Source: a virus
Strand: one strand, 5' to 3'
Length of the DNA: 31,104 bases
Virus record (IMG/VR): IMGVR_UViG_3300042890_001252
Coordinates: 1-31,104 of that record
Part shown: in pieces, positions 21,067 through 25,722 of the stretch
Layout: each line of letters begins with the position of its first letter
Position numbering within the stretch: position 1 is the first letter of the stretch
Position numbers and translations under genes: made by a program
Notes under the pieces: model-generated
What the model saw: the letters and a program-made list of their open reading frames with translations, nothing else
Databases searched by the model: none
Told to the model about the DNA's origin: nothing

Positions 21067-21320
21067 TCGTCTACTTCTTCCTTCGACGACAGACAGGCGT
21101 AGTGCTGCGCCGTCGCCGCCATCTCTTCGGCGAAAATCTTCTGCAACGCCGACAGGCGACCGCCGCGCTTCTTCAGCTCGACAAACCACGCTTCGCCGTT
21201 CGGCATGCAAGCGATGCGGTCGGAGACGCCGCGCAGCACCGGGCTGCGGAACTTGTACGCCTTGCCGCCCGCCGCCTCGACGCGCTTTACGAAATAGGCT
21301 TCGATCTCTTTCTCGGTCAC
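21045..21320 (-). CDS. VRR-NUC domain nuclease
   Basis: A 91-aa single-domain VRR-NUC protein of the PD-(D/E)XK nuclease superfamily. The catalytic set is Asp34 in RGVSDRIA, Glu48 and Lys50 in FVELKK, and Gln60 in SALQK. Stand-alone VRR-NUC proteins of phages can act as Holliday-junction-resolving or structure-specific nucleases. The start is GTG at 21320, overlapping the upstream stop as GTGA, with no clear ribosome binding site, so translation is probably coupled. Confidence 0.92.
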   Translation of the reverse strand: MTEKEIEAYFVKRVEAAGGKAYKFRSPVLRGVSDRIACMPNGEAWFVELKKRGGRLSALQKIFAEEMAATAQHYACLSSKEEVDEWFKRFA

Positions 21321-21523
21321 ACTATCAAAACCGTGTCTATGTTAATGCGTGTGCCCTTAAACGGGCCTCTTTCGGCGGGAGCTGCCTCGCGCTTGCGACC
21401 GCCGTCATCAGTCCACACCACATCCGCACCCAAGTTAGTAAACAGGTCTTTCAGTATATTTAGCGCCTGCGTTTTTCCGGCGCCTTGGCCGCCAGCTATC
21501 TCGATAAAAAGTTCCTTACGCAT
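21317..21523 (-). CDS. Orphan mini P-loop protein
   Basis: A 68-aa protein with a textbook Walker A motif, GGQGAGKT (residues 11-18), after a hydrophobic strand (LFIEIA), then a helix (LNILKDLF) and a second strand (ADVVWTDD). There is no Walker B or lid: the chain ends where kinase folds usually continue. The start at 21523 is chosen because AGGAG sits 6 bp upstream; an in-frame ATG 21 bp earlier has no such site. Codons (TTT, ATA, AGA, CTA) are unlike the neighbouring nuclease and helicase genes. Could be a nucleotide-binding regulator or a degraded kinase. Confidence 0.72.
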   Translation of the reverse strand: MRKELFIEIAGGQGAGKTQALNILKDLFTNLGADVVWTDDGGRKREAAPAERGPFKGTRINIDTVLIV

Positions 21524-21560
21524 GGCTTGCTCCTTTTCTGTCATGCCGCCCGTCTACGGC

Positions 21561-21644: not shown

Positions 21645-22766
21645 ATGCAGCACAGTAGGATTGTCGGCGGCTCGTCCGCCAAGCGCGTCATCGCCTGCCC
21701 CGGCAGCGTGGCGCTGGTGGACAAGATGCCGCCGCAGCCCGGCAGCAGCTACGCCAATGAAGGCACGCTCCTGCACGACACCATCGCCGACATTCTCGAC
21801 GGCAAGGGCGTGGCCGAGGACTATCTGGGCCGCACGCACGAAGGCATCGCGTTGACCGAAGAGTTGATCGAGCGCAAGCTGCGCCCCGCGCTGGCCGCGC
21901 TGGACGAGATCGACCCGAAGGGGGAAATGGAATATGCGGTCGAAAGCAGGGTGGGCTTTGGCGATCTTCTGCCTGACGTGTTCGGTTCTACTGACCTTCT
22001 GGGCCGCATTGGCGACCGCGCTGTTGTGCTGGATTGGAAGTTTGGCGACGGCGTCGCGGTCGAAGTCGAAGAGAACTCCCAGCTCCTCTTCTACGCTGCG
22101 GCTGCTATCCGCACGCCGGAGACGACGTGGGTGTTCGACGGTGCTAAGGAACTCGAACTGATCATCGTGCAACCGCCCAGCGTCAAGCGCTGGGTGACGA
22201 CGCTGGAGCGCGTCAAGGCGTTCGAGAGCGAGTTGGTGGCTGCGGTCAAGACCGCGATGAAGCCGGACGCCCCGCTGGCCGCTGGCGACCACTGCAAGTG
22301 GTGCGCGGCAAAGCCGGTCTGTCCGGTCATGACGGGCGCGGTTGACCGGCTGGTGCGCGAGAAGATCGAGATGCTGCCGGTCGAGCAGATCGCGCACTAT
22401 CTGAACCAGTTGCCGGTGGTCGAGAATTTCCTGAAAGACCTTCAGCAGTTGGCGCACGGCATCCTTGAGGAAGGCAAGACCATCCCCGGCTGGAAGCTGG
22501 TCAACAAGCGCGCGACGCGGCAGTGGGTGGACGAAACCAAGGCGGTCGCGTTCCTGACTGACAAGGGCGTCGAAGCCTACGAAGAACCGAAGGCGCTGTC
22601 GCCAGCCAAGGCGGAAAAGGCGCTGAAGAAAGCCAAGATCGAATTGCCGGCAGACCTCGTTGTCGCCGTCTCCACAGGTAGCACCCTCGCGCCAGCGGAC
22701 GACCCGCGCCCGGCGGTGGTACAAATCGGCCAGACGCTCGCAAAAGCCATGGCTAAAATCCAGTAA
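21645..22766 (+). CDS. DUF2800 RecB/Cas4-like nuclease
   Basis: A 373-aa protein of the DUF2800 family, a PD-(D/E)XK nuclease related to RecB and Cas4. Seen: His44 in TLLHD, Asp117 in GSTDLLG, Asp130 and Lys132 in VLDWKFGDG, and Gln146 in SQLLFY. Four cysteines in the Cas4/AddB arrangement (Cys18 near the N-terminus, then Cys217, Cys220 and Cys226 in HCKWCAAKPVC) probably hold a 4Fe-4S cluster. The start at 21645 follows GTGAGG; the frame remains open upstream but crosses the promoter region. Likely processes DNA ends in replication or recombination. Its last codons form one copy of a 23-bp direct repeat. Confidence 0.92.
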   Translation: MQHSRIVGGSSAKRVIACPGSVALVDKMPPQPGSSYANEGTLLHDTIADILDGKGVAEDYLGRTHEGIALTEELIERKLRPALAALDEIDPKGEMEYAVESRVGFGDLLPDVFGSTDLLGRIGDRAVVLDWKFGDGVAVEVEENSQLLFYAAAAIRTPETTWVFDGAKELELIIVQPPSVKRWVTTLERVKAFESELVAAVKTAMKPDAPLAAGDHCKWCAAKPVCPVMTGAVDRLVREKIEMLPVEQIAHYLNQLPVVENFLKDLQQLAHGILEEGKTIPGWKLVNKRATRQWVDETKAVAFLTDKGVEAYEEPKALSPAKAEKALKKAKIELPADLVVAVSTGSTLAPADDPRPAVVQIGQTLAKAMAKIQ

Positions 22767-22775
22767 GAAGAAAGG
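22753..22775 (+). repeat. 23-bp direct repeat, copy 1
   Basis: Identical to 23006-23028 over 23 of 23 bases; includes AATCCAGTAAGAAGAAAGG. It covers the last codons and TAA of the DUF2800 gene plus the ribosome binding site of the next gene. The two copies are 253 bp apart and bound the Acb2/Tad1-like gene. Confidence 0.97.
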
Positions 22776-22781
22776 ACGGTA

Positions 22782-23009
22782 ATGCCGCACATGACCTATG
22801 GCGACAGAGCAGTGGGGTTGAGCTTCAACCCCGGCGCTGACAAAAATGTGACTTGGTGCAAAGAGGGGTATTCTGCGCTCATCGACCAGATGAACCTACT
22901 GCGCGAAAGCACAGATAGCGAGGAACAGAAGCGTCTGGCTTCAATCGCTATTACGGAAGCGCAAACCGCGCAAATGTGGGCGGTTAAGGCGATCACTTGG
23001 AAAGACTAA
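22782..23009 (+). CDS. Acb2/Tad1-like cyclic-nucleotide sponge (candidate anti-CBASS/anti-Thoeris)
   Basis: A 75-aa protein. The N-terminal AVGLSFNPG (residues 10-18) is followed by a helix (SALIDQMNLLRES) and a second helix ending in AITEAQTAQMWAVKAITW (residues 56-73). This helical hairpin with a C-terminal MWAVKA/T-W signature matches, from memory, the Acb2/Tad1 hairpin family of phage proteins. Characterised members sequester cyclic oligonucleotide or cyclic ADP-ribose signals and so block CBASS or Thoeris immunity. AAAGG lies 6 bp before the ATG, supplied by the direct repeat. Codon use is less GC-biased than the flanking genes. The ligand cannot be predicted from the sequence. An alternative is an uncharacterised helical family of the same shape. 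Confidence 0.72.
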   Translation: MPHMTYGDRAVGLSFNPGADKNVTWCKEGYSALIDQMNLLRESTDSEEQKRLASIAITEAQTAQMWAVKAITWKD

Positions 23010-23028
23010 AATCCAGTAAGAAGAAAGG
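23006..23028 (+). repeat. 23-bp direct repeat, copy 2
   Basis: A perfect copy of 22753-22775. It contains the stop codon of the Acb2/Tad1-like gene (TAA at 23007-23009) and the ribosome binding site of the following gene. The downstream context of this copy probably preserves the ancestral junction between the DUF2800 gene and the next gene. Confidence 0.97.
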
Positions 23029-23035
23029 TACTATG

Positions 23036-23695
23036 ATGTCGAATATCACAGCGTTTGGCGGCTCCAATCTGCCGTCGGTTCAGTCCCTCTCGTCGGCTCT
23101 CCGCACTGTCGCGGCCAGCGTCGGCGGCTCCGAAGGCATGGTCATCCTCAAGATGGACAAGACCGGCCATTGGGTGTTCGGTGCTGACCAGACTGAAGTC
23201 GAGGACGACAGCGTGTGGGCGGTCAATCCGTTCTCGTTCGTCCACGGCTTTATCGCGTGGGGCGACGGTGAAGTGCTGGGCGAGAAGATGGCGCCCGTCT
23301 CCGAACCGCTGCCAGAACTCGAACCGGCTCCGGCGACGTCGAAGCGCGGCTGGGAAATGCAGGTCGGCATGACGCTGGCTTGCACCAACGGCGAAGACGA
23401 AGGGATGCAGGCGCGTTTCGCGGCTACGTCCGTCGGCGGCAAGAAGGCCGTGCAGGCGCTTGCCATTGCCATCGCCGAGCAGGTCGATAAAGACCCGACT
23501 ACGCCCGTCCCCATGGTTGTGCTGAAGAAAGACCACTATCAGCACAAGTCCTATGGACGCATCTACACCCCGGTCTTCGAGATCGTCGGGTGGCAGTCGA
23601 TGGACGGTTCCGCAGATGAAGCGGCGGCTGGTGGAGCCGACGAAGAGCCTGTGGAAGAAACGCCGCGCCGTCGCCGCCGCCTCTCGACGGTGTAA
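23036..23695 (+). CDS. Conserved phage replication-region protein, possible ssDNA-binding protein
   Basis: A 219-aa protein. Residues 1-85 include GGSNLPSVQSLSSALR, ILKMDKTGHWVFGADQTEVED and WAVNPFSFVHGFIAWGDGEV; the second half has a beta-rich core (GWEMQVGMTLACT) and a KKDHYQHKSYGRIYTPVFEI segment. It ends with an acidic stretch followed by RRRRR. Similar proteins recur between a nuclease and a PolA gene in podophages; the beta-rich fold, conserved aromatics and acidic tail are compatible with single-strand DNA binding, but this is unproven. Two adjacent ATGs (23033, 23036) exist; 23036 has better spacing (7 bp) from AAAGG. Confidence 0.82.
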   Translation: MSNITAFGGSNLPSVQSLSSALRTVAASVGGSEGMVILKMDKTGHWVFGADQTEVEDDSVWAVNPFSFVHGFIAWGDGEVLGEKMAPVSEPLPELEPAPATSKRGWEMQVGMTLACTNGEDEGMQARFAATSVGGKKAVQALAIAIAEQVDKDPTTPVPMVVLKKDHYQHKSYGRIYTPVFEIVGWQSMDGSADEAAAGGADEEPVEETPRRRRRLSTV

Positions 23696-23739: not shown

Positions 23740-23763
23740 GAGTAGCAGGTGAGTGAGGCACCA

Positions 23764-25722
23764 ATGATATTGTGGATTGACTTCGAGACGCGCAGCCGCT
23801 GCGACCTTCGCGAGCGCGGCGTCTACAACTACGCGCAGGACGCCAGCACCGACGTGCTCTGCATGTCCTACGCCTTCGGCGACGGTGACGTGCAGACGTG
23901 GCGTCCCGGCCAACCCTTCCCCGACGCCGTGCGTCACCACACTGGCCAGATCAGGGCGCACAACGCGGCCTTCGAGCGGCTGGTGTTCTGGTATGTCCTC
24001 CAGATCGACTACGCGCTGGAGCAGTTCTACTGCACCGCAGCACAGGCCCGCGCCAACTGCGCGCCGGGTAGCCTAGAGGACGTGGGCCGCTTCGCTGGCG
24101 CTGGCATGCGCAAAGACCATCGCGGCGGCCAGCTTATTCGGCTGTTGTCGATACCGCAGGCCGACGGCTCCTTCCGCGACGACGAAGACCTGATGGCCGA
24201 GATGATCGCCTACTGCGAGCAGGACGTGCGCGCCATGCGCGCGATCAGCCAAGCGCAGCGCGACCTATCCGACCAAGAGCTGCGCGACTACCATGTCAAC
24301 GAGCGCATCAATGACCGTGGCGTGTTGCTAGACCGGCAACTGGCGCGCGCTGCCGTGCGCTACGCAGAGGTCGAGGCCGACGAGATACAGGCGACCGTCC
24401 GTGAGGTCACTGACGGCGCGATCACGTCCGTGCGCAGCCCCAGAATGCGCCAGTGGGTGCTCGACCGCGTCGGGCCGCTGGCGCTGTCGCTGGCCACCGT
24501 CTACAAGGACGGCGAAGCCAAGCTGTCTATCGACAAGAACGTGCGCGCCAACCTGCTGGCGCTGTCAGAGGAGCAGCCAGATGAAGTGCCGCCGGACGTT
24601 GCTGAAGTCATCCAGTGCGCGGACGATCTGTGGGCATCGTCCGTCGCGAAATTCAACCGCGCCGCAGCGCTTGCTGATGAAGAGGATGCTCGCGTTAGAG
24701 GCGCGTTTGTTTTTTCAGGGGGCAGCGCTACAGGCCGTGCTTCATCATTTGGACTGCAAGTCCACAACTTTCCCCGAAAGTGTGCTGACGACCCTGCACT
24801 AGTCCGCGAGGCGATGGTGCGCGGGCACGCCATTGTGCCCAAGCATGGCCGCCGCGTCACTGACGTGCTCAAGGGCATGCTGCGCCCGTCGCTCATGGCC
24901 GCGCCGGGCAAGCATCTGGTTGTCGCCGATTGGGCCGCAATCGAAGCGCGGGTGACGCCGTGGGCGTCGAACACCAACAGTGGCGTAGCCAAGCTGGCGA
25001 TCTTCGAGCGCGGCGAGGACGTCTATAAGCACAACGCCGCCGCGACGTTCCGCGTCTCTTACGATGACGTCGATAAGGAGCAGCGCCAGATCGGCAAGGT
25101 GCAGGAGCTTGCTTGCGGCTTCGCCGGCGGCGTCGGTGCCTTCGCGGCCATGGGCCGCATCTACAACGTCATCCTGTCCGAGAGCGAGAGCCGCAAGATG
25201 GTGGACGGCTGGCGTCGTGCGAACCCATGGGCGCAGGTCTATTGGGGTGCGCTGGAGCGGGCCTATCTGGCCGCCATGCGCAACCCCGGCAGAGAGTTCA
25301 GCGCGGGCCGCGTGACCTACCTCTACGACAAGCAAAATCTGTGGTATATACTGCCCAGCAAGCGCGTCCTGTGCTATCCTTTCGCCCGCTTCGACGACGA
25401 AGGCAACGTCACCTACGCCAAGGCGTCGTGGAAGCCTGCCGCCGACGCAAAGGAATGGCCGCGCGCTCGCCTCTGGAAAGGTCTGGCGTGCGAGAACATC
25501 ACGCAAGCCGTGGCCAACGATCTGTTGCGCTATAGCCTGCGGCGGCTGGACGAGGAAGGGCTGGACGTGGTGCTGCATGTGCATGACGAAATTGTGCTGG
25601 AGACAGCCAACCCCGACGACGCAGCGGTTACGCTGGTCAATATCATGACAACCCCGCCAGCGTGGGCAGCAGGGCTTCCGCTCAACGCGGAAGTCGCTAC
25701 CATGACGCGCTATGGCAAATAG
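23764..25722 (+). CDS. Family A DNA polymerase with 3'-5' exonuclease
   Basis: A 652-aa replicative polymerase. Exonuclease domain: Exo I WIDFET (Asp6, Glu8), Exo II around HNAAFE, Exo III YCEQD (Tyr150, Asp154). Polymerase domain: TGRASSFGLQVHNFP region, motif A VVADWAAIEAR (Asp389), motif B RQIGKVQELACGFAGG (Lys445) and motif C VHDEI (His607, Asp608, Glu609). All catalytic residues are present. The ATG at 23764 has GAGG 5 bp upstream; a GTG at 23749 would add five residues (MSEAP) and is supported by the identical start region of the next gene. Codons 303-346 (24670-24801) depart strongly from the surrounding bias. The 3' end lies 10 bp before the primase start. Confidence 0.96.
   Translation: MILWIDFETRSRCDLRERGVYNYAQDASTDVLCMSYAFGDGDVQTWRPGQPFPDAVRHHTGQIRAHNAAFERLVFWYVLQIDYALEQFYCTAAQARANCAPGSLEDVGRFAGAGMRKDHRGGQLIRLLSIPQADGSFRDDEDLMAEMIAYCEQDVRAMRAISQAQRDLSDQELRDYHVNERINDRGVLLDRQLARAAVRYAEVEADEIQATVREVTDGAITSVRSPRMRQWVLDRVGPLALSLATVYKDGEAKLSIDKNVRANLLALSEEQPDEVPPDVAEVIQCADDLWASSVAKFNRAAALADEEDARVRGAFVFSGGSATGRASSFGLQVHNFPRKCADDPALVREAMVRGHAIVPKHGRRVTDVLKGMLRPSLMAAPGKHLVVADWAAIEARVTPWASNTNSGVAKLAIFERGEDVYKHNAAATFRVSYDDVDKEQRQIGKVQELACGFAGGVGAFAAMGRIYNVILSESESRKMVDGWRRANPWAQVYWGALERAYLAAMRNPGREFSAGRVTYLYDKQNLWYILPSKRVLCYPFARFDDEGNVTYAKASWKPAADAKEWPRARLWKGLACENITQAVANDLLRYSLRRLDEEGLDVVLHVHDEIVLETANPDDAAVTLVNIMTTPPAWAAGLPLNAEVATMTRYGK

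Follow-up and report, generated by a model that had tools for sequence, protein, structure and literature searches.

Genes and features at the locus

The window (the whole stretch of DNA analyzed, 31,104 nucleotides) comes from an uncultured tailed phage, judging from its virion proteins (portal, scaffold, and major head protein) and from a podovirus relative with 60.8% polymerase identity to the window. The gene of interest encodes a 75-aa protein and lies within a replication gene block (Table 1). The gene order is exonuclease, 75-aa gene, SSB-like gene, family-A polymerase, and a primase-like DUF5906 protein. A sequence-only reading had described the 75-aa frame, two motifs within it, and a DUF2800 nuclease and polymerase block to either side, all of which were located as described. 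The segment AVGLSFNPG occupies residues 10 to 18 and AQTAQMWAVKAITW occupies residues 60 to 73; the DUF2800 nuclease lies upstream, and the SSB-like gene followed by the polymerase lies downstream.

Table 1. Coordinates of the 75-aa gene, its repeats, and its neighbors in the window
Feature	Position	Strand	Remarks
DUF2800 / PD-(D/E)XK exonuclease	21723..22766	+	Left slot border; PF10926 (E = 1.1e-50), PF12705, phrog_69 exonuclease
Left copy of perfect 23-nt direct repeat CTAAAATCCAGTAAGAAGAAAGG	22753..22775	+	Exonuclease 3' end and ribosome-binding site of the sponge gene
253-bp presence/absence unit	22776..23028	+	Cassette plus one repeat copy; missing in L347
Acb2-like hairpin (PF24729) gene, predicted cyclic-nucleotide sponge	22782..23009	+	ATG to TAA, 75 aa
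Right copy of 23-nt repeat CTAAAATCCAGTAAGAAGAAAGG	23006..23028	+	Overlaps the sponge-gene stop codon; gives the next gene's ribosome-binding site
SSB-like gene (inferred function)	23033..23695	+	Right slot border; model and weak Foldseek matches
Family-A DNA polymerase	23749..25722	+	PF00476, phrog_17

Hundreds of phage contigs keep the 75-aa frame open (one search gave 192 relatives and another 507), and a ribosome-binding site (AGAAAGG) lies 6 nt 5' of the ATG; thus, the frame represents a gene rather than a chance occurrence. The opposite strand of the same interval contains stops in the same frame. No promoter or terminator signals were found in the region.

The product of the right-hand neighbor was considered as a nucleotidyltransferase, and hence as a would-be signal-making partner, as it matches phrog_9528, which carries that label. 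This candidate gained no support. The protein has no sequence match in Pfam or the PDB, its model (of moderate to low confidence) is mainly beta with one long helix, and SSB OB-folds appear among its weak Foldseek matches, with low TM-scores. Because of this combination, the nucleotidyltransferase label looks doubtful.

Relationship to the Acb2/Tad1 hairpin family

The 75-aa protein had been named a candidate member of the Acb2/Tad1 family from its sequence, with a profile search among the proposed checks. PF24729 (Acb2/Tad1 hairpin) matched the protein with an E value of 5.4e-9 and 36.6 bits, above the gathering cutoff of 27, and matched 52/52 of the aligned homologs scanned. The match joins residues 32 to 72 to profile positions 25 to 57, the N-terminal part of the protein being aligned through the wider family alignment only; the match of T4 Acb2 to the same profile spans its full length. 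A clade-only profile, which avoids sole reliance on Pfam, was built from 24 diverse members of the window's clade with T4-type sequences excluded. Its top match among 177,635 distinct PDB sequences was T4 Acb2 (Vs.4, 7uq2; E = 0.0012). Taken together, these searches bear out the family assignment.

Other comparisons varied with the breadth of the query. A combined-family profile also matched T4 Acb2, circularly, because it includes T4-type members; after T4, its matches were to Acb2 of a Pseudomonas phage (8h2j/8ixz; E = 0.021) and then to several chains of Tad1 (E = 0.11 to 0.28), with one unrelated chain interspersed among the Acb2/Tad1 chains. By hhalign, the diverse clade set aligned with T4-type Acb2 over the C-terminal 26 columns at a probability of 91% and a score of 38.9, compared with a maximum of 27.9 and a mean of 11.4 for 100 column shuffles. 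A narrower profile-profile comparison (52 close homologs against T4-type Acb2) gave a probability of 10.7% over 17 columns, below its best column-shuffled control, and was superseded by the broader, more diverse profiles. The 75-aa protein retrieved nothing from the PDB in a single-sequence phmmer search and had no match in NCBIfam or PADLOC.

The AlphaFold2 model of the 75-aa protein (mean pLDDT, 95.9) contains helices at residues 6 to 10, 21 to 43, and 47 to 72. This arrangement of a short helix followed by two long antiparallel helices is the hairpin layout anticipated from the sequence, and Acb2 is built in the same way, with a short N-terminal helix and two long antiparallel helices (PMC10419184). 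Structural comparison of the monomer gave a divided result. Among viral predicted structures, Foldseek placed named Acb2/Tad1 hairpin proteins at ranks 1 to 3, but no Acb2 chain was among the PDB matches listed, which consisted of unrelated helical bundles. Two-helix hairpins are poor Foldseek queries. Because Acb2 is absent among the listed PDB matches, the comparison adds little over sequence.

The positions that form the ligand site in Acb2 are largely retained. In the combined alignment, G12, F15, and P17 of the 75-aa protein correspond to G7, Y8, and P10 of T4 Acb2, K27 to K23, T58 to T68, and T72 to F82; in the HMMER alignment to 8h2j, the F15 and K27 columns correspond to Y11 and K26. 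The aromatic residue at T4 Y8/Pseudomonas Y11 is therefore kept as F15 (a conservative Y-to-F change), the lysine at T4 K23/Pseudomonas K26 as K27, and the threonine at T4 T68 as T58. All three are invariant in the 52 close homologs, K27 is invariant over both families (window clade and T4 type), and 23/75 positions are invariant clade-wide. The original Acb2 paper reportedly describes a functional role for K26 of Pseudomonas Acb2. The Y8/Y11 aromatic of Acb2 contacts the ligand and is needed for cyclic dinucleotide binding. In T4 Acb2, the Y8A substitution disrupts nucleotide binding (PMC12657218, PMC12657230), T68M lowers affinity (PMC12657230), and F82 stacks on the ligand base (PMC12657218). 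The phenylalanine at the F82 position is absent from the window protein, which has T72 followed by an invariant W73. Pseudomonas Acb2, a proven member, is likewise nonaromatic in this column; as F82 is not universal in Acb2, it is not family defining. Of the differences, the one at T72/W73 is the likeliest to affect ligand choice.

The sequence-only reading had further proposed that AVGLSFNPG marks a distinct subgroup. This proposal fell away because AVGLxFNP is nearly invariant throughout the window's clade, in all relatives, and because F15-x-P17 aligns with Y8-x-P10 of T4 Acb2, which includes the ligand-contact position. The segment is the clade's own form of the ligand-site N terminus. To our knowledge, no member of this FNP clade has been tested experimentally.

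Of the joint description as Acb2/Tad1-like, only the first half stood. Tad1 carries an N-terminal beta-sheet domain before the hairpin that forms part of the gcADPR pockets (PMC12043709); because this domain is missing from the window protein, the protein is best regarded as Acb2-like and not Tad1-like. Its main target could still be a Thoeris-type ADP-ribose signal, in the manner of Tad1, or another nucleotide signal instead of a CBASS oligonucleotide. Pfam unites Acb2 and Tad1 in PF24729, Tad1 chains come next after Acb2 in the combined-family PDB search, AIT-x-x-Q-x-x-x-MW of Tad1 resembles AITEAQTAQMW of the window protein, and T72 replaces T4 F82. However, in addition to lacking the domain that contributes to the gcADPR pockets, the window protein belongs to a clade whose own profile matches Acb2 and not Tad1, and its gene shares a genomic slot with an anti-CBASS family (see below). 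We consider a non-CBASS target unlikely and favor an Acb2-type sponge directed at a CBASS signal.

A repeat-bounded cassette and its alternative cargo

The 75-aa gene is bounded by the two copies of the 23-nt repeat, which consists of the final 14 nt of the exonuclease gene and the ribosome-binding site behind it. No such repeat pair occurred in shuffles of the window, which were scanned with the 21-base core. In relatives, only a few bases separate the end of the exonuclease from the SSB-like gene, and the repeat sequence is present in one copy. An empty site is seen in the contig L347, which is 97.9% identical to the window upstream and 98.7% identical downstream; exactly the 253-bp unit is absent, a single repeat copy remains, and the joint is the same as the window's right-hand repeat copy. 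Over 4.4 kb, L347 shares 99.2% identity with a second contig, L003, which contains the cassette. Thus, the 75-aa gene is an accessory cassette that comes and goes among near-identical phages. Its GC content is 53.8%, compared with 62 to 64% nearby, and only 0.4% of 75-codon windows are as low.

The cassette copies of the window and L003 differ by 3.1% and their flanks by 2.4%. Because these values are close, the state of L347 fits an older gain of the cassette followed by precise loss, which would have occurred by recombination between the 23-nt repeats. Regain of the cassette may be an alternative to precise loss. The neighborhood contains a second variable spot, as the window does not align to L003 or L347 over 21320 to 21518. 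Both sides of this comparison have a small minus-strand open reading frame there (21317 to 21544 in the window) with a Walker-A-like motif, which reads GGQGAGKT in the window's copy and GKQGHGKT in that of L003.

Among the unique junctions with the SSB-like gene (n = 81), 76 are empty and 5 contain cargo of three kinds. In one relative only (L197:4659-5000, the same as L331), the Acb2-like gene is replaced by a PF13876 gene (E = 3.4e-20), bounded by the same 23-nt repeat, the second copy of which differs at one base. Its product is 40% identical to N4 gp48 over 72 aa (E = 4e-21) and matches SPO1 Acb4 in the PDB (E = 0.0082). PF13876 is the Acb4 family of anti-CBASS sponges (PMC11722364), and N4 Acb4 is active in a Panoptes assay (PMC12657230). 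Within one phage group, then, a slot with one and the same scar is occupied by a sponge of either the Acb2 type or the Acb4 type. In phage N4 itself (L454:633-1486), the gene immediately after the Acb4 gene gp48 (PF13876) is gp49, which is Tad2-like (PF11195), such that two sponge families are adjacent.

The third cargo is a 92-aa orphan (MEFNPDPDDETYYRLNKLV...) found at L219:4044-4345 (L329), L222:4689-5000 (L398), and L403. In L219, its end runs in frame into the repeat (...YKIQ). It had no family, PDB, or isolate-phage match, and the viral contigs that closely encode it are the slot carriers themselves. The orphan is a candidate new anti-defense protein. A more far-reaching proposal is that the junction is a dedicated counter-defense slot, swapping unrelated sponges (Acb2-like and Acb4-like) via the 23-nt repeat, and also that the orphan represents a sponge for immune signals, or another kind of anti-defense protein, not described before; we regard this combination as possible but doubtful.

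The distribution of the gene also bears on whether the protein is a helical accessory of replication or packaging (one that pairs with the exonuclease or SSB, for example) that resembles Acb2 in fold alone. Among 106 hairpin loci, 14 adjoin a DUF2800-like nuclease and 12 a SNF2-like helicase, and homologs adjoin terminase genes in other phages, as might be expected of such an accessory. The neighbors are otherwise highly diverse, though (382 flanking proteins fall into 243 clusters), and the ligand-site positions are conserved. Moreover, the gene is absent at 76/81 junctions of the same operon and from the near-identical L347, and the hairpin family was found nowhere in the records of 41 relatives (0/41) in a search without a separate positive control, although the same family search, in another run, recovered the window's gene. 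A replication or packaging role is thus highly unlikely. In Avibacterium paragallinarum NCTC11296 (L279-L283), five equal-scoring copies of the hairpin gene occupy different chromosomal places, probably in several related prophages.

That the gene is a neutral passenger, with no present function in the window's phage, is scarcely credible: its ready loss (L347) and the five amino-acid-changing and two silent changes between the window and L003 copies, a short range that gives no clear sign of purifying selection, are set against 23/75 positions invariant over the clade and a frame and ribosome-binding site intact in both copies.

Interpretation and comparison with known sponges

We interpret the locus as an exchangeable counter-defense slot that holds an Acb2-type sponge for CBASS signals, a reading to which we assign a probability of approximately 0.78. 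The short sponge would be produced alongside the phage replication proteins and would assemble via its long helical hairpins, as Acb2 does, presumably into a hexamer. Its predicted pockets would be lined by the F15-x-P17 segment, by K27 and T58, and by MWAVKAITW at the C terminus. Cyclic oligonucleotide alarm signals would be held in these pockets and not destroyed; because the signals are held, CBASS effectors would stay off while the genome is replicated. The cassette comes and goes at its slot, which the exonuclease gene borders on the left and the SSB-like gene on the right, and where an Acb4-family sponge can take its place.

One view in the literature is that Acb2 is rare and confined to a few phage groups (PMC11722364). 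The FNP-type hairpin clade occurs in hundreds of phage contigs, in which it is mostly labeled hypothetical, and represents a large uncharacterized part of the Acb2/Tad1 superfamily; it would enlarge Acb2 if its members bind signals. The slot is more important than the gene, as it lets two unrelated sponge families trade places at a single position in phages of closely related background. In this respect, the slot is a natural counterpart of the engineered acb2-to-acb4 swap in T4, and it also points to a new candidate in the 92-aa cargo. Acb sponges defeat CBASS yet trigger Panoptes (PMC12657218, PMC12657230), and the precise loss and come-and-go pattern of the cassette would fit this CBASS-Panoptes dilemma. 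What merits further attention here is the slot with its interchangeable sponges, together with the orphan that forms its third cargo.

Among the named systems, Acb4 (PF13876; SPO1, N4 gp48) shares with the window protein the slot and repeat scar (L197/L331) and the same presumed role. Its fold is unrelated (PMC11722364), and there is no homology between the two. Tad1 (8kbb, 7uav, and 8smd) has in common with the window protein the helical hairpin with AIT-x-x-Q-x-x-x-MW but differs in its N-terminal beta-sheet domain, as the 75-aa model contains no strand. Acb2 (T4 Vs.4, 7uq2; Pseudomonas phage p26, 8h2j) is the closest of the three. Relative to Acb2, the window protein is shorter (75 aa versus 88 to 94), has FNP in place of YKP and a three-residue deletion ahead of the lysine, has T72 where T4 Acb2 has F82, and ends in W-K-D without the QP tail. 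It nevertheless shares the PF24729 hairpin, the residues at Y8/Y11, K23/K26, and T68 (as F15, K27, and T58), and, with T4-type Acb2, an invariant MW near the C terminus.
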